DNA from: a virus | DNA: 25,054 nt | Virus record (IMG/VR): IMGVR_UViG_3300006334_000060 | Location: 1 to 25,054 of that record | Reading direction: 5' to 3' (one strand) | Part shown: one piece after another, positions 9,427 to 20,819 of the stretch | How the letters are laid out: each line of letters opens with the position of its first letter | How positions within the stretch are numbered: the first letter of the stretch is position 1 | Notes under the pieces: model-generated | The model's database searches: none | The model's input: only the letters and a program-made list of their open reading frames with translations | What the model was told of the DNA's origin: nothing | Made by a program: the position numbers and the translations under genes

Positions 9427-9450
9427 CTTTATTCCCAAATCACTTATAAT
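9423..9450 (+). promoter_or_regulatory. Sigma70-type promoter with perfect -10
   Basis: TTGACT (9423-9428, 5 of 6) is followed by a 16-base spacer and TATAAT (9445-9450, 6 of 6). It is the best sigma70-type match seen in the window. Its -35 overlaps the stop codon of the preceding gene, and its last -10 base is the first base of a perfect late promoter. Confidence 0.75.
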
Positions 9451-9457
9451 ATAAATA
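9450..9457 (+). promoter_or_regulatory. T4-type late promoter TATAAATA
   Basis: An exact match to the T4 late promoter consensus, recognised in T4 by gp55-bound host polymerase with gp33 and the gp45 clamp. Initiation would fall near 9463-9465, about 22 bases before the ATG at 9486, with GGAG (9474-9477) as ribosome site. A TATAAATT at 9462-9469 lies just downstream. It overlaps the sigma70-type promoter, so the following operon could be read both early and late. Confidence 0.8.
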
Positions 9458-9485: not shown

Positions 9486-10586
9486 ATGAAAGGTTTTACT
9501 AATTTCGTATCTGAAGCATACGATATTATTCCCAAGTCTGAGGGAGAAATTGACGAATTAGACATTCCTCATGATAAGGAAAAACTAAAAGCGTTATTCA
9601 CCGATGTTGTGACACAAACTGGTGTTGCAGACCCCATTGCCATATCTAAAAGTACCAATGAAAAAGGTATAAAAATCATGCGTTCAGTCGCAGATGACTT
9701 AGACCTTGCAAAACTCTCTGGAACATATGGTTTCAAAGTTTCTGCTGGTAATGGTTCAAGGGGCGGCACTGGAACTAAATCTATGGGATTTGGTTTTGAA
9801 GGACAAGTTTTCAAAGACCTCAATACCTATATTGAAGAAGGTGTTGATTCACCAAACTTCAAGTATCCAGACTTCATGAAAGACTTTCACTCACAGGTGT
9901 TATCAAAACATTCTGAAATCACTGTAAGTTTAGATGGTGGTGCGAATACTCGTAGACCACTTGTGTTTACAGATATTGGCGCTCTCATCAAAGGTAGAGA
10001 ACTCAACATTGGTCAGTATGTAACAGATATTACTGTAAACGGTGATGGTAATCCATATTACCTCTCACTGAAATACGGTAGCACTGTTACATTTTTCAAT
10101 GCTGGTGTCGCAACTATTTTTACAGAAGACCAGTTTAAAGCAGGAAAAATCACAAACAGAAATGCAAAACAACTTCTTGGTATGCTTGGTATTGATGAAA
10201 AAAGATTCATCGAAACCTTTGAAGGATACGATAAAAAGACTGCAAGTAGAAGAGCTCCAAAAGATGTTGTAGATGTAACCAGAAAAGTAAACATGAGAGC
10301 ATTGTTACAGTTGTTAGTAACTGGTGTTGGTATGGGTTATTGGATGGTACACAAAAAGGGTAAGGGTGTTGAACTCTATGAGATGAATCGTAGAAAGATG
10401 ATGGATGCTGCAAAAGTAAGTAGTGTCAAGGTTCAATATCCAAAGAAGGGAACTGCAAAGAGAATTGATATCGAAGTGGTGACCAAAATGTATATTTTCA
10501 AAATCAACATTCGTAACAAACAGGGTGGATTGTATCCGTCACATATTATGTGTGATTACAAACCAAATCCAGCATATGCAAAATGA
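9486..10586 (+). CDS. Hypothetical protein with capsid-targeting-like leader, possibly nuclease-like
   Basis: A 366-residue protein. ATG 9486 follows GGAG by 8 bases. Residues 1-11, MKGFTNFVSEA, line up position by position with the T4 internal-protein capsid-targeting leader MKTYQEFIAE followed by Ala; V-S-E would be a gp21-type cleavage site. The rest is not recognised with confidence. Residues 98-113 (KSMGFGFEGQVFKDLN), Asp181 in DITVNGDG and Ser194-x-Lys196 in YYLSLKYG could be an E...D...(S)xK nuclease core, which is a weak hint only. The C-terminal half holds KQLLGMLGIDEKRF and VNMRALLQLLVTG. It is the first gene of the late operon and overlaps the next by 4 bases (ATGA). Confidence 0.88.
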   Translation: MKGFTNFVSEAYDIIPKSEGEIDELDIPHDKEKLKALFTDVVTQTGVADPIAISKSTNEKGIKIMRSVADDLDLAKLSGTYGFKVSAGNGSRGGTGTKSMGFGFEGQVFKDLNTYIEEGVDSPNFKYPDFMKDFHSQVLSKHSEITVSLDGGANTRRPLVFTDIGALIKGRELNIGQYVTDITVNGDGNPYYLSLKYGSTVTFFNAGVATIFTEDQFKAGKITNRNAKQLLGMLGIDEKRFIETFEGYDKKTASRRAPKDVVDVTRKVNMRALLQLLVTGVGMGYWMVHKKGKGVELYEMNRRKMMDAAKVSSVKVQYPKKGTAKRIDIEVVTKMYIFKINIRNKQGGLYPSHIMCDYKPNPAYAK

Positions 10587-11815
10587 TTAGTTTGATGGAA
10601 AATAAGGCAGGAAAGAATCTGCACCTAGAACATATCGAAGATGAGATACTTAACTTTGGTGTGCCTGGTGGTCGTGCTGCAATCAACTTCATGCGTTCAC
10701 TAAGAGATATGTTCTCTGGTGCAAGTCGTAGTTCAGTAAACATGACTGTGAAGTGGGATGGCGCTCCTGCAATATTTGCTGGTATTGACCCAGAAGATAA
10801 TACGTTTTTTGTTGCAAAGAAATCTGTGTTTAACGTAGAACCAAAACTCTACAAGACGGAGGCAGAAATAGATGATGATTTATCTGGAACACTTAATTCT
10901 AAATTTAAAATCGCACTTGCAGAATTTTCTAAGTTGGGTATCACAGGGGTACTACAAGGTGACCTCATGTTTACAGACGATGTTGAAAAAACAACCATTG
11001 ACGGCACAAAGTATTATACTTTTCAGCCTAATACTATTGTATATGCTGTTCCACAAGATAGTGGTCTTGGTAAAGTAATCAACAGTGCAAAGATTGGTGT
11101 CGTATGGCACACAACATATACTGGTTCTGCACTGCAAGATATGAAAGCATCATTCGGTGCAAACATCAGTAAACTGAAAAAGACATCCACAGTATGGATG
11201 GATGATGCAACATACAAAGATGCATCTGGTACTGCAACATTTACATCAACTGAAAATGCAGAAGTAACTGGTCACTTGTCAAATGCTGGTAAATCATTCC
11301 ATCAAATTAACTCTGCAAAACTATCTAAGTTCCTTAGATTACAGAACTCACTGACAGGTAAACTGGTTGGTGCATCACTCAAGACATATAACAACTCAAA
11401 GGTTCGTAAGGGTGAAGCAATCAAGAACCCAAAACAACACGCTGCTGGATATATTACTTGGGTTGAAAATCATTTTGCAAAAGAGGTTGACAAGGTAAAA
11501 ACTGAGAAAAGTAAAGATGTTCTAAGAACAAAAGGTAGAGAATACGCAAGAGAATTTAAGAAAGATTTAACAAACTTAGAAGCGGTTATTGCGTTCCAAT
11601 CACATTTGGTAAATGCAAAGATGGGGATTGTAAAAAAACTAAATAGTGTTAAAGGTTTAACTGATACTTTTATTAAGACTAGTAATGGATTTAAAGTGAC
11701 AAACCCAGAGGGTTATGTTGCAATTGACAGAGTATCAGGCGATGCAGTAAAACTTGTTGACAGAATGGAATTTAGTTTTAATAACTTTACTGCAATAAAG
11801 GCATGGGATAAATGA
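10583..11815 (+). CDS. Conserved marine-phage protein with ligase-like (nucleotidyltransferase) motifs
   Basis: A 410-residue protein starting in an ATGA overlap (ATG 10595 is an alternative). It resembles a family common in T4-like marine phages and usually left unnamed. Motifs in ligase order can be read: motif I KWDG (Lys57-Gly60, in VKWDGAPAIF), a DGEL-like QGDLMF (125-130), a motif IIIa-like FQPNTIVYAV (147-156), motif IV-like PEGYVAID (375-382) and motif V-like AVKLVD (388-393). KxDG with a later EGxV and KL is the signature of covalent nucleotidyltransferases (DNA and RNA ligases, capping enzymes). The I-to-IV distance is longer than usual, so an insert (about 180-350) is needed. Function is inferred, not known. 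No targeting leader is seen here, unlike its neighbours. Confidence 0.9.
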   Translation: MISLMENKAGKNLHLEHIEDEILNFGVPGGRAAINFMRSLRDMFSGASRSSVNMTVKWDGAPAIFAGIDPEDNTFFVAKKSVFNVEPKLYKTEAEIDDDLSGTLNSKFKIALAEFSKLGITGVLQGDLMFTDDVEKTTIDGTKYYTFQPNTIVYAVPQDSGLGKVINSAKIGVVWHTTYTGSALQDMKASFGANISKLKKTSTVWMDDATYKDASGTATFTSTENAEVTGHLSNAGKSFHQINSAKLSKFLRLQNSLTGKLVGASLKTYNNSKVRKGEAIKNPKQHAAGYITWVENHFAKEVDKVKTEKSKDVLRTKGREYAREFKKDLTNLEAVIAFQSHLVNAKMGIVKKLNSVKGLTDTFIKTSNGFKVTNPEGYVAIDRVSGDAVKLVDRMEFSFNNFTAIKAWDK

Positions 11816-12228
11816 GAACTTTTAAAGAATTATTTGAAGACGAAATAGACGAAAAACAAACGCCTGCTCAAATTATGCAGAATCGCAGAAAAATGAGTAG
11901 ACGTATGAAAATTCTTGCGAAGAAATCATCCACTAAGATGAAGAAGAAGAGAGCAAGAGTAAGACGCCGTGACCCAGATGCGTTACAGGCGATTGCAAAA
12001 CGTCAAGCAAAAATGATGGTTATCAAACGTAGTTTAGGCCCAGAGGTCAACTACAAAGAACTCCCCATGCAAAAACGTATTCAGATTGACCAGAAGATTG
12101 TTGCCAAAAAACGTAAAGTGATTGACAAGATATCACAGAAGATTCTTAGGAAACTAAAAGCTGGTGAGGGTGAAAGAATTAAAAAGAATAAGGCTGCAAT
12201 GGCAGGCATGGACGCAGTGGGAGATTGA
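11812..12228 (+). CDS. Highly basic protein with acidic capsid-targeting-like leader
   Basis: A 138-residue protein coupled by ATGA overlap to the previous gene. Residues 1-14, MRTFKELFEDEIDE, are acidic after the MRTFKE start and end in I-D-E, a gp21-type (L/I)-x-E site. Everything after it is strongly basic: NRRKMSRRMKILAKK, TKMKKKRARVRRR, then long Lys-rich helices. The pattern of a removable acidic leader on a basic body is that of T4 internal head proteins, which are packaged with DNA. I infer a DNA-binding internal capsid protein. No enzyme motif is present. A ribosomal-protein-like look is due to composition only. Confidence 0.86.
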   Translation: MRTFKELFEDEIDEKQTPAQIMQNRRKMSRRMKILAKKSSTKMKKKRARVRRRDPDALQAIAKRQAKMMVIKRSLGPEVNYKELPMQKRIQIDQKIVAKKRKVIDKISQKILRKLKAGEGERIKKNKAAMAGMDAVGD

Positions 12229-12229
12229 T

Positions 12230-14953
12230 ATGAAAACTTTTAAAGAAGCAAGAGGCGATACCGCTGTATTCACATTTGGTAGATTTAATCCGCCCACAAC
12301 TGGTCACGAAAAACTTATAGACGCACTTGGTAGAGAGCAGGGTAAGAACCCAGGCGCTCCTATGTATGTGTATCCATCTCATTCCCAGAACCCAAAGAAA
12401 GACCCACTTCCTCATGGAAGAAAAGTCGCATACATGAAGAAGATGTTTCCAAAGTACAAAAGAAACATTACAGTCAGTCGTGCAAGAAATGTGTTCGATA
12501 TCGCAGTTGAACTGCATAACAAAGGTCACAAGGCAATTGTCATGGTTGTTGGTTCAGATAGGGTGGATGAATTTGCAAACCTATTAGACAAGTATAATGG
12601 TGTAGAGGGTAGACACGGTTTCTATGGATTCGATGATATTAAGGTAGTATCTGCTGGAGAACGTGACCCAGACGCAGAGGGTGTAACAGGAATGTCTGCA
12701 TCTAAAATGCGTGCCGCTGCAACTGCAAATGACCTTGACCAGTTTAAACTTGGTCTTCCAAAAGGATTTGCAGATGGAGAAAAACTGTTTAATGATGTTC
12801 GTAAGTTTATGGGCGTTAAAGAAGAATTCAATCTTACAATGGAAGAACTAAATCGTGACCTTTATATTCGTGGAGAGATTTGGAATGTCGGTGATGTTGT
12901 AAAAACAACAGATGGTGATGAGGGTACAATCATTCGCAAAGGCACAAACTATGTTGTGTTTGAGGACTTGAGAAGAGTGTGGTTGCATAATCTTGAAGAG
13001 GTTAGAAAAACAAAACAAGATAAAGATGTTGAGGACAGAGAAGGTACACAACCAGCAAAGTATTATGCAAAAGGTGCTGGTGGCAAAACTATGAAAAAGT
13101 CTACCAAGCAATCTAGGGCAAGACACTTTGAAAAAGGTGCGAAGATGGATGATGATAATCCTGCCGCATATAAACCAGCGCCTGGCGATAAAGGTGCAAA
13201 AACCAAACTGTCCAAGTACACCAAAAAATATAGACAGATGTATGGTGAGACTGAGGAAAGTCTTTGGGCAAACATTCATAAGAAGAGAGAAAGAATCAAA
13301 AGGGGTTCTGGTGAGAAGATGAGAAAAGTTGGTGACAAAGGCGCTCCAACACCAGACCAGATGAAACGTGCAAAGGGTGAGTCTGTCACAGAAGAAATGA
13401 AGTGTCCGCCTGCAACCCAAGACGTAAAGATTAATACGACAAACAGAGATGCAACAATCAAGAACTTCAACTATGGGCCACTGAATGTTGACGAACCAGG
13501 CGATTACTGGAAAGATATTGCAAAGTACTGGAAGACAACTGAAGAGGCAGCAAAGAAGTCAGTATGTAACAATTGTGTTGCGTTTGATGTATCACCAAGA
13601 ATGTTAGAGTGTATGCCAGGCGAAACATCTGATGATGATGGTCGTTTGGGATATTGTTGGATGCACCACTTCAAGTGTCACTCTGCAAGAGCGTGTCACA
13701 CTTGGGCAAAGGGTGGGCCAATCACTGAAGATGAAAAATCATATGATTGGCAAAAACGTGCAAAGATGGATGAGAGAAAACTGACAGATGCAGAAAAGAA
13801 GAAATTAGTAAGTTTAGAAAAAGATGTGTCAAAGAAAGACTTTATTGACAGATACGGTAAAGAAGAAGGTGAATCAATCTATTATGCAACTTTGACAAAA
13901 ATGGCAAAGAAACACGCAGAAGAGATACACGAAATGTCAATAGGTAAAATAATTCGTGATAAGATTTACAATATGACACATCCAAAAAAGATGGATAATC
14001 TTGTAAAAGCGTATGCAGATGCAGTTGCATCAGATACCAAGGGAAGACATGGAAACAGTTATCATGCTGGTGAGGTAGTCAGAAGACATGGTGCTGAAAG
14101 ACAAGGTGTTGACGTAAGACAACTTATGGGTTATATAAACTCACTTGTTAAGAAAGGTGACATACCAGCATCATTGAAAGCACAGGATGAGATTGATGAA
14201 GAATTCTTGGATGAAAAGATTGCTGGTCTTGTAAAGAAGTCAGATAAGTCTGGTGTACCATATGGTATTCTTAAAAAGGTTTACGATAGAGGTATGGCGG
14301 CATGGAGAACTGGACACAGGCCAGGCACCACACCACAGCAGTGGGCCTTTGCCAGAGTCAATTCATTCTTGACAGGTGGTGGTGCAAGAAAGTCTGATGC
14401 AGACTTGTGGTCAAAAGCAAAAGGTGCAAAGAAGAAAAAGAAAGAGTCTTATGAGATTGGTAAAGATTACGGTGACCACGCTCGTAAGATAACGCCTGGA
14501 CAACAAGTAACTAAAGAGTCAATAGAAGAATGGTATCTTAGTGAGAGTGTAAGAGATAAATATGAACAGAGATATGGTGACGAGTGGTTAAGTAAATTAA
14601 CCAAAACCTACCATGCAATGCTAGAAAAGGTTGAACCCTGTTGTGACGATTGTGCAGAACAATTTGACCATATCGTAGAGGATGCAGAGTATCAAGGTAG
14701 AAAAGTAAAACTGAATGACCCCATTCGCACAAGCGAAAACCCTAACAAGAAGTTTAAGGTTTATGTGAAGAATGAAAAGGGAAAGGTCGTAGTGGTTCGT
14801 TTCGGTGACCCAAATATGGCAATCAATCGTGATGACCCAGAAAGAAGAAAGTCATTTCGTGCGAGACACAACTGCGATGACCCAGGCCCGAAAACGAAGG
14901 CAAGATATTGGAGTTGTTTCCAATGGCGTGCTGGTGCAAAAGTCGATAACTAA
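12230..14953 (+). CDS. 907-residue polyprotein: nucleotidyltransferase plus several marine-phage virion modules
   Basis: ATG 12230 (GGGAG at 12219-12223) gives MKTFKEARGD, the leader-like start; an upstream in-frame ATG at 12164 lies inside the preceding gene. Modules in order: a cytidylyltransferase/NMN-adenylyltransferase-like domain (11-190) with FGRFNPPTTGH (T/HxGH at 23-26) and GMSASKMR (154-161, the ISSTxxR position); a KOW/SH3-like segment (214-257); a basic KSTKQSRARHF...APGDKGAKTKLSKYTKKYRQMYGE module (273-339); a Cys/His-rich probable zinc domain (Cys446, 449, 460, 476, 483, 489); an RYGKEEGESIYYATLTKMAKK module (541-561); a GVPYGILKKVYDRG module (675-735); and a C-terminal YQGRKVKLND...FRARHNCDDPGP module (820-907). 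ITE, IHE, LDE, LSE and IVE tripeptides sit near module borders. Inference: packaged and cleaved by prohead protease. Confidence 0.92.
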   Translation: MKTFKEARGDTAVFTFGRFNPPTTGHEKLIDALGREQGKNPGAPMYVYPSHSQNPKKDPLPHGRKVAYMKKMFPKYKRNITVSRARNVFDIAVELHNKGHKAIVMVVGSDRVDEFANLLDKYNGVEGRHGFYGFDDIKVVSAGERDPDAEGVTGMSASKMRAAATANDLDQFKLGLPKGFADGEKLFNDVRKFMGVKEEFNLTMEELNRDLYIRGEIWNVGDVVKTTDGDEGTIIRKGTNYVVFEDLRRVWLHNLEEVRKTKQDKDVEDREGTQPAKYYAKGAGGKTMKKSTKQSRARHFEKGAKMDDDNPAAYKPAPGDKGAKTKLSKYTKKYRQMYGETEESLWANIHKKRERIKRGSGEKMRKVGDKGAPTPDQMKRAKGESVTEEMKCPPATQDVKINTTNRDATIKNFNYGPLNVDEPGDYWKDIAKYWKTTEEAAKKSVCNNCVAFDVSPRMLECMPGETSDDDGRLGYCWMHHFKCHSARACHTWAKGGPITEDEKSYDWQKRAKMDERKLTDAEKKKLVSLEKDVSKKDFIDRYGKEEGESIYYATLTKMAKKHAEEIHEMSIGKIIRDKIYNMTHPKKMDNLVKAYADAVASDTKGRHGNSYHAGEVVRRHGAERQGVDVRQLMGYINSLVKKGDIPASLKAQDEIDEEFLDEKIAGLVKKSDKSGVPYGILKKVYDRGMAAWRTGHRPGTTPQQWAFARVNSFLTGGGARKSDADLWSKAKGAKKKKKESYEIGKDYGDHARKITPGQQVTKESIEEWYLSESVRDKYEQRYGDEWLSKLTKTYHAMLEKVEPCCDDCAEQFDHIVEDAEYQGRKVKLNDPIRTSENPNKKFKVYVKNEKGKVVVVRFGDPNMAINRDDPERRKSFRARHNCDDPGPKTKARYWSCFQWRAGAKVDN

Positions 14954-14965
14954 AGGAAGATAAAA

Positions 14966-16423
14966 ATGAGATATGGAAAAAGCATGAGTGAAGCCCTTGC
15001 AGAAATTCGTGAGGGGTTCTCCAAAAAAGAAATCAAGATGGCAATCGGTGTTGCATCTGACCCACGTTATAAACAGGGTAATTACTCTGGTGCGGTAAGA
15101 GCAATCGAAAAAATTAAAAAGGGATTGTCAACACACCCACAGGTTGCTGCTGTTCTAAAAAGACAGAACGAGGAGATATTTGAAAAAGTCAAGTGTCCAG
15201 AATGTAATGGCGAAGGTTGTGACCATTGTGAGGGAAGAGGATATCATACCGAAGCACTTGACAAAGAGGATGAACCTTTTGTAAAGGACTTGATTAAAAA
15301 ACTAAGAAAAGGTTCTGCAACTCACGGTAAACAGGCAGATGACTTGGAGAAGGCAGTCAAGGAAGAAACTGAACTTGATGAAGTGAAGACTACTCATGTA
15401 GTTATTGATACTGCTGATGGTGACAAGGTTGTCGGTACTGCATCTTCTGAAAAGGTTGCAAAGGAAATTATCACAACTGCACAACTTCCACCTATTAAAA
15501 TCAAAGATAAGAAGACTTTGAAGGTTGTTATGATGAAGAAACCTGTCAGTGATAAGAAGGCATCACAGATGATTGGTTATCCTTTGAAAGAGGAAGTTGA
15601 ACTTGATGAGAGTGTCAAGGCATCAACTGCTTATGACTTTGACCGATTAATTAAAGATGGTGGGCTTGATAAAAGAGATTTCCAAAAGGCAAAAAACTTA
15701 TACACCCAGAATAAGTTGATGGATTTAAGAAAATTTATCTATAACTTAGATACCTCTCCACTAGAAGCAATCATGGATGTCATTGCAAAAAATGACCCAA
15801 AGGCATTTATGAAGATGTATCCAAAATCCAAGAAGGGTGAGTATATGTCTAGTATCGCTTACGCACACAAAGAAGAAGTTGAACTTGATGAAAGAAAGTT
15901 TGAAGCTGGTAAGTCTGCTTCTGGTTACGATATATTCCACAAAGACTTTTCATCTGCAATGCAACACGCAACTGCATTTGCAAAGAAAAAAGGACAACCA
16001 ATTAAGAAAGATGAGATTGATAATAAAGTTGCAACAGGCCCAAGAAAACCAAGCCCAGGCAAAGAAAACTCATACACTCTTGAAACCGAAAAAGGTAAGA
16101 GGTGGTCAGTTCAAGTGTATAACATGGGTAGTAAATTTGAACTGAATATGTACTTAACATCATCTCATGTGCCTGAAGGTGATACGCTTGATGAAGCAAA
16201 AGAAGTTTTGTCAAGATTTAAAGATGATAAACTTAAAAAGAGTATCATGAATCTTGCAACACAAAAAGGACTAAAGGTTAAGGAAATGGGAGACAAACTT
16301 GAAGTCTCTGGTAATGCCAGAAAGGTTATGGACTTAACCCTTGCAGTTCAAAAACATGATGTAAAAGTTGAACATAACATGATGTCAGCGTATACTGCTG
16401 CTATAACTAAAGGAGTAAAATAA
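14966..16423 (+). CDS. 485-residue polyprotein with repeated ELDE linkers and a zinc motif
   Basis: ATG 14966 follows AAGGA (14953-14957). Residues 1-17 (MRYGKSMSEALAEIREG) contain I-R-E, a possible leader cut. A helical module follows (FSKKEIKMAIGVASDPRYK...), then a DnaJ-like zinc motif CPECNGEGCDHCEGRG (77-92). From there the protein is a string of small alpha/beta modules separated by near-identical acidic linkers: KEETELDE (132-139), KEEVELDE (208-215), KEEVELDE (302-309) and EGDTLDE (404-410). Each ends L-D-E, matching the gp21 (L/I)-x-E rule. Modules between linkers are about 70-100 residues and unrelated by eye (THVVIDTADGDKVVG; AYDFDRLIKDGGLDKRDF; SGYDIFHKDFSSAMQHA; a final KH-like alpha/beta module with RFKDDKLKKSIMNLA). 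I recognise no enzyme. Inference: internal capsid polyprotein. The next ATG overlaps its stop by one base. Confidence 0.92.
   Translation: MRYGKSMSEALAEIREGFSKKEIKMAIGVASDPRYKQGNYSGAVRAIEKIKKGLSTHPQVAAVLKRQNEEIFEKVKCPECNGEGCDHCEGRGYHTEALDKEDEPFVKDLIKKLRKGSATHGKQADDLEKAVKEETELDEVKTTHVVIDTADGDKVVGTASSEKVAKEIITTAQLPPIKIKDKKTLKVVMMKKPVSDKKASQMIGYPLKEEVELDESVKASTAYDFDRLIKDGGLDKRDFQKAKNLYTQNKLMDLRKFIYNLDTSPLEAIMDVIAKNDPKAFMKMYPKSKKGEYMSSIAYAHKEEVELDERKFEAGKSASGYDIFHKDFSSAMQHATAFAKKKGQPIKKDEIDNKVATGPRKPSPGKENSYTLETEKGKRWSVQVYNMGSKFELNMYLTSSHVPEGDTLDEAKEVLSRFKDDKLKKSIMNLATQKGLKVKEMGDKLEVSGNARKVMDLTLAVQKHDVKVEHNMMSAYTAAITKGVK
15365..15891 (+). repeat. Dispersed in-frame linker repeat encoding E-(V/T)-ELDE
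   Basis: The 17-mer GAAGTTGAACTTGATGA occurs exactly at 15593-15609 and 15875-15891, and with two changes at 15365-15381 (GAAACTGAACTTGATGA). All copies are in the same reading frame. Weaker relatives are CTTGATGAAG near 16189 and AAACTTGATGAGAA near 16658 in the next gene. The spacings are 228 and 282 bases, multiples of three. Identity at the DNA level as well as protein suggests recent duplication or linker shuffling rather than convergence. Confidence 0.8.
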
Positions 16424-17280
16424 TGTCAAAATATTTTGATACAAAACCTGGCAGTCTTGAAGAAGCCGTATCCGCTGCTCAACAGGCTGCAATTGCTATC
16501 TCCAAAAAGGAGAGAGGTGAGAAACCAAAAGATAAAAAAGATGAAGGTAATGCATTTGGTGCTGCCTTAATGGCGGCAAAGGAAAAGGGTGAAAAAACCT
16601 TTACTGTTGCTGGTAAAAAATATGATGTAAAGACTGAACAAGAAATCAAGGAAGAAAAACTTGATGAGAAGGTTGAGTATGTTGAGTACAAATTCAAAAA
16701 CAAGAATGATGCAATGGCAGCAAAGAAGATGCTTGATGCAGTTCAGTTAATGAGTTTCGATATCAACGATGACAACATCTCTGGTGGTGAACTCATGGTT
16801 GATGCTGGTTCAAAGGATATGACCAAGTATCATAAAGAAATCATGAAGAAGTTTAAACCAAAGGTAATGAAAACTGAAACCAACAAGAACGACAAGTCTG
16901 ATGACGGTGACGGTCTTGATGCGGTTCAACCAGACGCTGTTAAGAAGAAGTTCAAAGACCGTAAGGACAAGGACATTGATAACGATGGTGACGTAGATGA
17001 TTCAGATAAGTTCTTGCACAAAAGACGTAAGGCAATCTCAAAGTCAATGGGTGAGTCACTTATGTCTGTTGCAGATTCCGTTAGACAAATGTGGGATGAA
17101 GCTGCAAAGAAATCTGAGTCTCAAGATGTGTTGAATGATAAAGATGGTGATGGTATGGATGATGACCAGAAACCAGAAAAAGCGAAAGCAAAGAAAATGA
17201 CTGATACTGGTAAACCAGTAACACCGATTGAGACATCACCAAAGATGCCTAAAACAAAAAATGAGAAGAACAAAGTCTAG
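16423..17280 (+). CDS. 285-residue acidic/basic protein with EF-hand-like loops and LDE linker
   Basis: The ATG overlaps the previous stop by one base, with AAAGGAG at 16409-16415. The start MSKYFDTKPGSLEEAVSAAQ contains L-E-E (12-14), a possible leader cut. KEEKLDEKVEY (77-87) repeats the linker of the previous polyprotein. A small alpha/beta module follows (VEYVEYKFKNKNDAMAAKKML...MTKYHKEIM). The C-terminal half is low-complexity and charged, with two calcium-loop-like stretches: DIDNDGDVDDSD (184-195, full DxDxDG pattern) and DKDGDGMDDDQ (239-249). Such loops are seen in EF-hand and dockerin-like proteins; calcium binding is inferred only. Likely a virion or prohead protein of the same class as its neighbours. 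The last base of the stop is the first base of the next GTG start. Confidence 0.88.
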   Translation: MSKYFDTKPGSLEEAVSAAQQAAIAISKKERGEKPKDKKDEGNAFGAALMAAKEKGEKTFTVAGKKYDVKTEQEIKEEKLDEKVEYVEYKFKNKNDAMAAKKMLDAVQLMSFDINDDNISGGELMVDAGSKDMTKYHKEIMKKFKPKVMKTETNKNDKSDDGDGLDAVQPDAVKKKFKDRKDKDIDNDGDVDDSDKFLHKRRKAISKSMGESLMSVADSVRQMWDEAAKKSESQDVLNDKDGDGMDDDQKPEKAKAKKMTDTGKPVTPIETSPKMPKTKNEKNKV

Positions 17281-20235: not shown

Positions 20236-20415
20236 ATGGAAGTAGTAAGATATGGTGCTGGTGGAATGCCAATTGTCTCTAAAGAAGAGAAAAAGGTAGA
20301 ACCAGTAGAAAAGGTCGAAAAGACAAAAAAGAAATCAGAACCACTTCAAGAGATTCTTGAAGTCAATCCAAATGAAGATGATGGTTTTGATGAGGAACAT
20401 GGAGAAGATGAATGA
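20236..20415 (+). CDS. Short charged hypothetical protein (59 residues)
   Basis: A small gene with AAGGAG (20224-20229) 6 bases before ATG 20236, ending in an ATGA overlap with the next gene. The product starts MEVVRYGAGGMPIVSKEEKK, continues as a Lys/Glu/Val-rich linker, and ends strongly acidic (NEDDGFDEEHGEDE). Good ribosome site and coupling at both ends make it real despite its size. It is probably unfolded or an extended tail. No function recognised. Confidence 0.8.
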   Translation: MEVVRYGAGGMPIVSKEEKKVEPVEKVEKTKKKSEPLQEILEVNPNEDDGFDEEHGEDE

Positions 20416-20819
20416 AAACCTTTAAACAATATATGAAGGAAGCTCCTCATCCAGCAGACGGTGACAATCCTGTTGATGGTGACATGATGTTGGGTGACCT
20501 TACCAGTGATGCAGTAGTCGAAAGATTGAATGCATATGTTGGTGCGATTGCAGATAGAGAATATCTCAATCCAGAAAAAGCAGTTGCTGAGATGAGACAG
20601 AAACTTATGAGAGTTGGTATTCATTTTGGTGATGTTCAATTTACTGAGGAAAGTGGTGAGATTTCTGTTCCTCTAGTTCAGTATGGTGGCGCATTTGGTA
20701 AAAGTGGAGACACACCATATGATGAGTTTGATAACGAAGTCGAGAGTGGTCGTTCATTGAACTTTGTATATGAGAGAACAGGTGGGGGTACGCATAGAAT
20801 TCTAGCAAAGATTATGTAG
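20412..20819 (+). CDS. Conserved-looking protein with capsid-targeting-like leader
   Basis: A 135-residue protein beginning MKTFKQYMKEAPHP. The first 11 residues align with the T4 leader MKTYQEFIAE plus Ala, with M-K-E at the cleavage position (less ideal than L/I-x-E). A helical stretch (SDAVVERLNAYVGAIAD, PEKAVAEMRQKLMRVGI) is followed by strands (VQFTEESGEISVPLVQYGG) and an ending NFVYERTGGGTHRILAKIM. No enzyme motif seen. Coupled by ATGA to the 59-residue gene. Inference: late protein, possibly internal to the capsid. Confidence 0.85.
   Translation: MKTFKQYMKEAPHPADGDNPVDGDMMLGDLTSDAVVERLNAYVGAIADREYLNPEKAVAEMRQKLMRVGIHFGDVQFTEESGEISVPLVQYGGAFGKSGDTPYDEFDNEVESGRSLNFVYERTGGGTHRILAKIM

Follow-up and report, generated by a model that had tools for sequence, protein, structure and literature searches.

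Why does a marine phage join a nucleotidyltransferase-like enzyme to a train of further modules in a single reading frame? The question was addressed for positions 12230–14953 (+) of a 25,054-base IMG/VR fragment, called the window here. The fragment belongs to a marine T4-like myovirus. Its closest named relatives are Methylophilales phage Melnitz, Pelagibacter phage HTVC008M and phage C48C1, all of them Kyanoviridae. The 907-residue frame called by a first-pass annotation is real and consists of 907 open codons. The encoded protein carries a net charge of +33; the T4 internal proteins are likewise basic. We conclude that it is probably a capsid cargo polyprotein that is directed into the head by a capsid targeting sequence (CTS) and cut by the prohead protease gp21.

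Gene Cluster

The frame is part of a conserved cluster of genes starting at 9486 (phrog_8438), 10583 (DUF6267), 11812, 12230, 14966 and 16423, with UvsX and the gp41 helicase encoded upstream of it. The first gene (9486..10586, +) has the CTS-like start MKGFTNFVSE|AYD (the bar marks the candidate cleavage site). Just upstream of this tagged gene, at 9450..9457 (+), stands the single copy of the T4-type late promoter consensus TATAAATA in the window, which is weak evidence alone, 1.33 copies being expected by chance.

The DUF6267 protein (10583..11815, +) contains the ligase-like motifs KWDGAP, EGYV and KLVDR, which are invariant in the form KxDGAP, EGYV and K[LI]VDR. A comparison with the PDB by sequence gave no match. 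Its relatives in C48C1 and DLP6 carry a CTS-like peptide at the N-terminus, and in phrog_455 DUF6267 is fused to the nucleotidyltransferase (NT) domain. Possibly this protein is a packaged nucleic-acid ligase, the ligase-like reading being based on motifs only. The following gene (11812..12228, +) encodes a very basic protein of 138 amino acids (net charge +26) with the CTS-like start MRTFKELFE|DEIDE|.

Downstream of the 907-residue frame a second module train of 485 amino acids is encoded (14966..16423, +), with sites at 16, 73, 139, 215, 309 and 410. It is the cleaner train, its linkers being KEETELDE|, KEEVELDE| (twice) and GDTLDE|. The linker DNA repeat coding for EETELDE is found at 15363..15383 (+) with more copies at 15591–15611, 15873–15893 and 16649–16669, the last one within the next gene. 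Such repeated linker DNA (e.g., that coding for KEEVELDE) may promote module exchange. This next gene (16423..17280, +) encodes a third mosaic protein, MSKYFDTKPGSLEE|A..., with an internal EEKLDE|K; a similar piece occurs in the virion protein gp280 of phage S-SCSM1. Outside the main cluster, a 135-residue protein (20412–20819) also has a tag-like N-terminus, MKTFKQYMKEAPHPAD, and its Melnitz counterpart starts similarly with MKNFKNHIAEE. The prohead protease of this virus was not seen because the window is without head genes. A prohead protease gene is present in HTVC008M, S-CREM2, S-SM1 and S-SCSM1.

The Nucleotidyltransferase Domain

The N-terminal motifs TTGH (residues 23–26) and GMSASKMR (154–161), from which an adenylyltransferase-like enzyme had been proposed, were confirmed and are near-invariant in 38 relatives. 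The near-invariant positions include G17, R18, N20, P21, G25 and H26 as well as S156 and R161, in the contexts GRxNPxTxGH and SASKMR. Among them, G25, H26, S156 and R161 are invariant in all 38 sequences and constitute the (H/T)xGH and SxxxR/K motifs. The HxGH domain comprises residues 10–195 (12257..12814, +). A small beta-rich extension (residues 196–257; 12815..13000, +), which ends with LEE-257, is conserved with the cyanophage orthologues.

Profile searches against nucleotidyltransferase families, which the first-pass annotation had suggested, gave a divided result. The PHROG cytidyltransferase profiles phrog_3041 and phrog_395 matched with 1e-88 and 4e-62, respectively, and spanned residues 4–311. 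The Pfam profile CTP_transf_like reached 17.3 bits, below its cut-off of 21, and the NCBIfam NMNAT (NadR/NadD) equivalog TIGR01526 reached 15.6 bits, far below its cut-off of 341. A sequence profile of the domain found no significant match in the PDB and a fold search was used instead. The AlphaFold model, built from 32 sequences, had a pLDDT of 88.5. Foldseek returned NaMN and phosphopantetheine adenylyltransferases (PPAT) as the best PDB matches, about equal to each other, at a probability of 1.0 and TM values of 0.5–0.7 (9fyb, E = 1.9e-5; 36 PDB matches at E ≤ 0.001). Domain 1 of the model thus shows the Rossmann-type HxGH nucleotidyltransferase fold. We regard this modelled fold as secure and the enzyme as adenylyltransferase-like. 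HTVC008M and C48C1 have an annotated NAD synthetase, a weak hint at the NAD pathway for this enzyme.

The Putative N-Terminal Tag

In the T4 tag, targeting depends on residues 4 and 7 and processing on residues 8 and 10; cleavage by gp21 follows L/I-x-E (PMC9026906). T4 Alt is cleaved at ITE-6 and LTE-619 (PMC5694885). We therefore took as CTS an N-terminal tag of about 10 amino acids with hydrophobic residues at positions 4 and 7 and [LI]xE followed by a small residue; IPII and IPIII (MKTYQEFIAE|A) and IPI (MKTFKEF) served as T4 control sequences.

The 907-residue protein starts with MKTFKEARGD, its relatives with MKKFSEIIEARGD, MKSFKDIREARGD and MKRFVDLQEAKK. Its first six residues are those of T4 IPI. 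By this comparison MKTFKE|A (residues 1–6; 12230..12247, +) is a putative CTS with the first cleavage site. Most relatives show this pattern in full (MKKFSEIIE|A), and a [LIVMF]xE site stands before the NT fold in 56 of 63 distinct N-termini, mostly in the form MK[KTS]F..[IL]xE|A. The tag of the window protein is a shortened version, with F instead of L/I at P3 and without a separate position 7. The prohead protease of HTVC008M itself (gp21, L086:22211-22867) starts with MKLITE|, which recalls the ITE-6 cut of T4 Alt; those of S-CREM2 and S-SCSM1 start with MKLIRE.

Modules and Their Borders

The several further modules postulated behind the enzyme were indeed found, among them a phrog_16028, a Cys-rich, a DUF5824 and a phrog_7595/DUF5754-like module. 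A basic module with a site-free border (AKYYAKGAG...RQMYGE, residues 277–341; 13058..13252, +) precedes the phrog_16028 module (ESLWANIHKKR...KGAPTPDQMKRA, residues 343–386; 13256..13387, +; profile match at 344–381). VTE-388 (13385..13393, +), identified from the border contexts, is the site before the Cys-rich module (residues 389–515; 13394..13774, +), which ends with MDE-515. Module D (residues 516–568; 13775..13933, +), ends with IHE-568. Module E follows (residues 569–657; 13934..14200, +), and the double site IDE-657 and LDE-662 (14192..14215, +) lies in a low-confidence linker (residues 653–663). The DUF5824 (PF19141) module (residues 663–736; 14216..14437, +) scored 67.8 bits at a gathering cut-off of 25. 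Module F (residues 773–817; 14546..14680, +), is preceded by IEE-767 (14522..14530, +) and LSE-772 (14537–14545, +), and ends with IVE-817. The last module (DAEYQGRKVKLNDP..., residues 818–907; 14681..14950, +) matched phrog_7595 at residues 817–899 (1e-14); DUF5754 (PF19058) reached 19.4 bits on it, below the gathering cut-off of 27.4.

Bare counting of the tripeptides was rejected as evidence, as the frame contains eight [LI]xE compared with 5.3 in shuffled sequences (p = 0.14). Instead, the 12 residues ahead of each module were examined in nonredundant upstream contexts from 334 related loci, with shuffles within the linker as the null; the relatives are not independent observations. [LI]xE was found before DUF5824 in 57 of 68 contexts (18.9 shuffled, z = 10.9), before the last module in 29 of 38 (12.7 shuffled, z = 6.2), before module E in all 10 (3.9 shuffled) and before the Cys-rich module in 16 of 41 (9.4 shuffled). 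These four borders consequently show L/I-x-E beyond composition, as expected of a polyprotein processed by gp21. The control motifs [LI]xD, [LI]xK and [LI]E were not raised at the same borders; [LI]xxE was raised before the Cys-rich module only (15 versus 8.6). Of 64 contexts realigned on the E, 39 had L and 17 had I at P3, while P2 and the upstream positions varied more; the realignment anchor itself demands E at P1 and a hydrophobic P3. HSP breakpoints were closer to the sites than under rotation for the 907-residue frame (p = 0.012) and for 14966–16423 (p = 0.0086), and not significantly so for 16423–17280 (p = 0.32). Several sites fall within linkers that the full-length model shows at low confidence. 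In the test of upstream contexts, the borders preceding residues 277 and 343 showed no [LI]xE enrichment. Therefore, not every module is separable.

The first-pass annotation had placed five tripeptides close to the module borders. All five positions are correct, and IHE-568, LDE-662 and IVE-817 are supported as border sites because the border position is enriched or conserved in relatives. The other two are probably not processing sites and were discarded as such. Only 9 of the 63 distinct tails of the Cys module retain ITE-500; the border there is M[DNT]E, here MDE-515. At the F border, [LIVMF]xE occurs at −2, the position of LSE-772, in 9 of 28 contexts and at −7, that of IEE-767, in 16 of 28. 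FKE-6 in the tag, VTE-388, MDE-515, IDE-657 and IEE-767 were absent from the earlier list.

Among the relatives, modules are missing, reordered or split into separate ORFs. The Cys-rich module forms its own ORF in locus L083 (MKTFKQHIVE|KMSCPAATQ) and the DUF5824 module in L329 (MLSFKSFLTE|KKIAGLVKK), both immediately following a T4-IP-like start. The last module occurs in separate ORFs in L002, L004, L018 and L262; in a separate ORF of L018 a T4-IP-like tag stands directly before the module (MKSFIEHLSE|AEYDGRKV). This replacement of an upstream module and its site by a tag and its site is the strongest sign that the borders may act as processing sites.

The same data bear on the reading that the chain is packaged and stays uncut. 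The N-terminal tag would be removable, the internal LxE would belong to acidic flexible linkers and the modules would work as one multidomain protein. T4 offers a direct precedent for an N-terminal tag only, some borders are without a site, and IEE-767 and LSE-772 lie in a well-modelled, structured region and not in a linker. Against these points stand the specific enrichment at P3 and P1 over composition-matched shuffles and the modules that also occur as stand-alone tagged ORFs and hence have no need of each other. We consider an uncut cargo unlikely.

Related Proteins in Virions

The orthologous enzyme T4-GC190, which starts with MKKFSAFLNE|A, was detected in purified virions of S-SM1 (PMC3037559). 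A cytidylyltransferase was reported in S-CREM2 virions (PMC10665884) and an NMNAT in S-SCSM1 virions (PMC9602691), where it is also flagged in the genome record. The suggestion that the enzyme is packaged is therefore supported for orthologues by published mass spectrometry (S-SM1, S-SCSM1, S-CREM2), and tag-like N-termini and gp21-type sites at most borders are in line with it. In S-SCSM1 five consecutive protein genes including that of the enzyme are flagged as virion proteins. One of the five, gp280, contains KEEVELDE|R, a linker also present in the window gene 14966–16423.

A tag rule was set from T4 and marine N-termini before S-CREM2 was looked at; a first regular expression, applied to HTVC008M, had been discarded as too loose and for missing known cases. 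In S-CREM2, seven of the nine ORFs picked by the rule belong to the virion proteome compared with 36 of 190 others (p = 3.7e-4), and they include a SAM hydrolase and a kinase. The result for S-SCSM1, where rule matches were assigned to genes by eye, was not significant (4/12 versus 43/270, p = 0.12); both phages pooled gave p = 3.9e-4. S-SCSM1 gp030 (MKTFKQFMSE) is tag-like yet not flagged as a virion protein. The Cas9-like S-CREM2 gp12 (L091:7704-10313 (-)), reported in virions, has FASFMAE|A around residue 25, which may be an internal-protein tag. A similar N-terminal piece (GYxxYADxxTGKxTH-like) directly follows the tags of the kinase S-CREM2 gp14 (L091:10579-12846) and of the NT proteins P-SSM4_155 (L088:4755-5906) and S-CREM1 218 (L337:23735-24868). 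Judged from its sequence, this common piece suggests an exchange of cargo modules between enzymes.

If the protein were a normal auxiliary metabolic enzyme, synthesized in the host during infection for a late supply of NAD or CoA, it could reach virion preparations by carry-over. Possible CsCl carry-over is conceded by the authors of two virion studies (PMC10665884, PMC9602691), and the related phages HTVC008M and C48C1 have annotated NAD synthetase genes, as mentioned above. The enzyme is not alone in the S-SCSM1 virions, as five neighbouring cluster genes are represented there; the tag is common to unrelated S-CREM2 virion proteins (SAM hydrolase, kinase), and the cluster contains basic module trains. 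These findings make the auxiliary role quite improbable. Least probable is a head, neck or scaffold protein that gp21 degrades like gp22 to pieces without cargo function: many L/I-x-E sites are also found in T4 gp22, gp67 and gp68, but the site density is low here (8 in 907 residues, none in the 200-residue enzyme), the catalytic motifs are invariant and orthologue peptides survive in mature virions.

Proposed Fate of the Chain

For the cargo polyprotein the following course is proposed. The 907-residue chain would be expressed late and taken into the prohead core by its T4-internal-protein-like tag MKTFKE|A. A prohead protease of the gp21 family with L/I-x-E specificity would then trim the tag and cut at most border sites. 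The predicted products are an adenylyltransferase unit of about residues 7–388 and the modules 389–515, 516–568, 569–657, 663–767, 773–817 and 818–907. Enzyme unit and modules would stay in the head with the DNA and be ejected alongside it. This analysis supplies the fold of domain 1, the tag-like starts, the sites at the borders, the shuffled modules and their stand-alone forms with a tag; the orthologues in virions come from the data of others, and targeting, cleavage, ejection and substrate are what we infer. If modules are bounded by sites, their gain, loss, reordering or move to an own tagged ORF is harmless to the others, and a mosaic is the consequence.

The evidence is evenly balanced on a wider proposal, namely that marine T4-like phages possess a general exchangeable cargo format of one tag and protease-bounded modules that are swapped via their own L/I-x-E linkers. 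The tag, readable from sequence, would mark enzymes that are injected, for example the S-CREM2 SAM hydrolase and kinase and possibly also the Cas9-like nuclease of this phage. If this is true, the basic mosaic proteins that now count as hypothetical in abundant ocean phages, whose hosts are SAR11, OM43 and cyanobacteria, become one readable class of injected head cargo, and a sequence rule predicts the phage proteins that are first to reach the host cell. It would also explain the unrelated enzymes in cyanophage virions, which earlier authors could not separate from contamination.

Comparison with Known Systems

Packaging of the enzyme is already known and its NAD role has been speculated on in the literature. 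We found no description of a T4-type tag combined with protease-bounded interchangeable modules in these phages in our literature search. The NT domain shares its fold (Foldseek) and the TxGH and SxxxR motifs with NaMN/NMN adenylyltransferase and PPAT, but identity is 13–19% and no family match at the sequence level lies above cut-off. Closest is the cyanomyovirus T4-GC190 “cytitidyltransferase” or NMNAT-like virion protein (S-SM1, S-SCSM1, S-CREM2, P-SSM4). Its NT domain is 41–43% identical in P-SSM4 and S-SCSM1, it has a CTS-like start, often adjoins a DUF6267-type gene and is found in virions. These proteins comprise about 290–410 amino acids with one or two added pieces, whereas the window protein has 907 with at least six further modules.

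The ejection proteins of phiKZ and SPN3US are head proteins that a protease related to gp21 cleaves behind a Glu within a short motif. There propeptides are removed, and we found no interchangeable module chain described for them in the literature consulted. T4 Alt is an enzyme that is packaged and that gp21 trims at both ends (ITE-6, LTE-619; PMC5694885), but it is an ADP-ribosyltransferase of unrelated fold and not modular. T4 IPI, IPII and IPIII resemble the window protein in the putative N-terminal tag, here in its shortened version, the E|A processing motif and the basic character. Each of them is small, stands alone and is cut once, whereas in the window a single tag would bring in a whole chain of modules with more cuts. 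The proposed format would be a variation on the way T4 uses its internal proteins.
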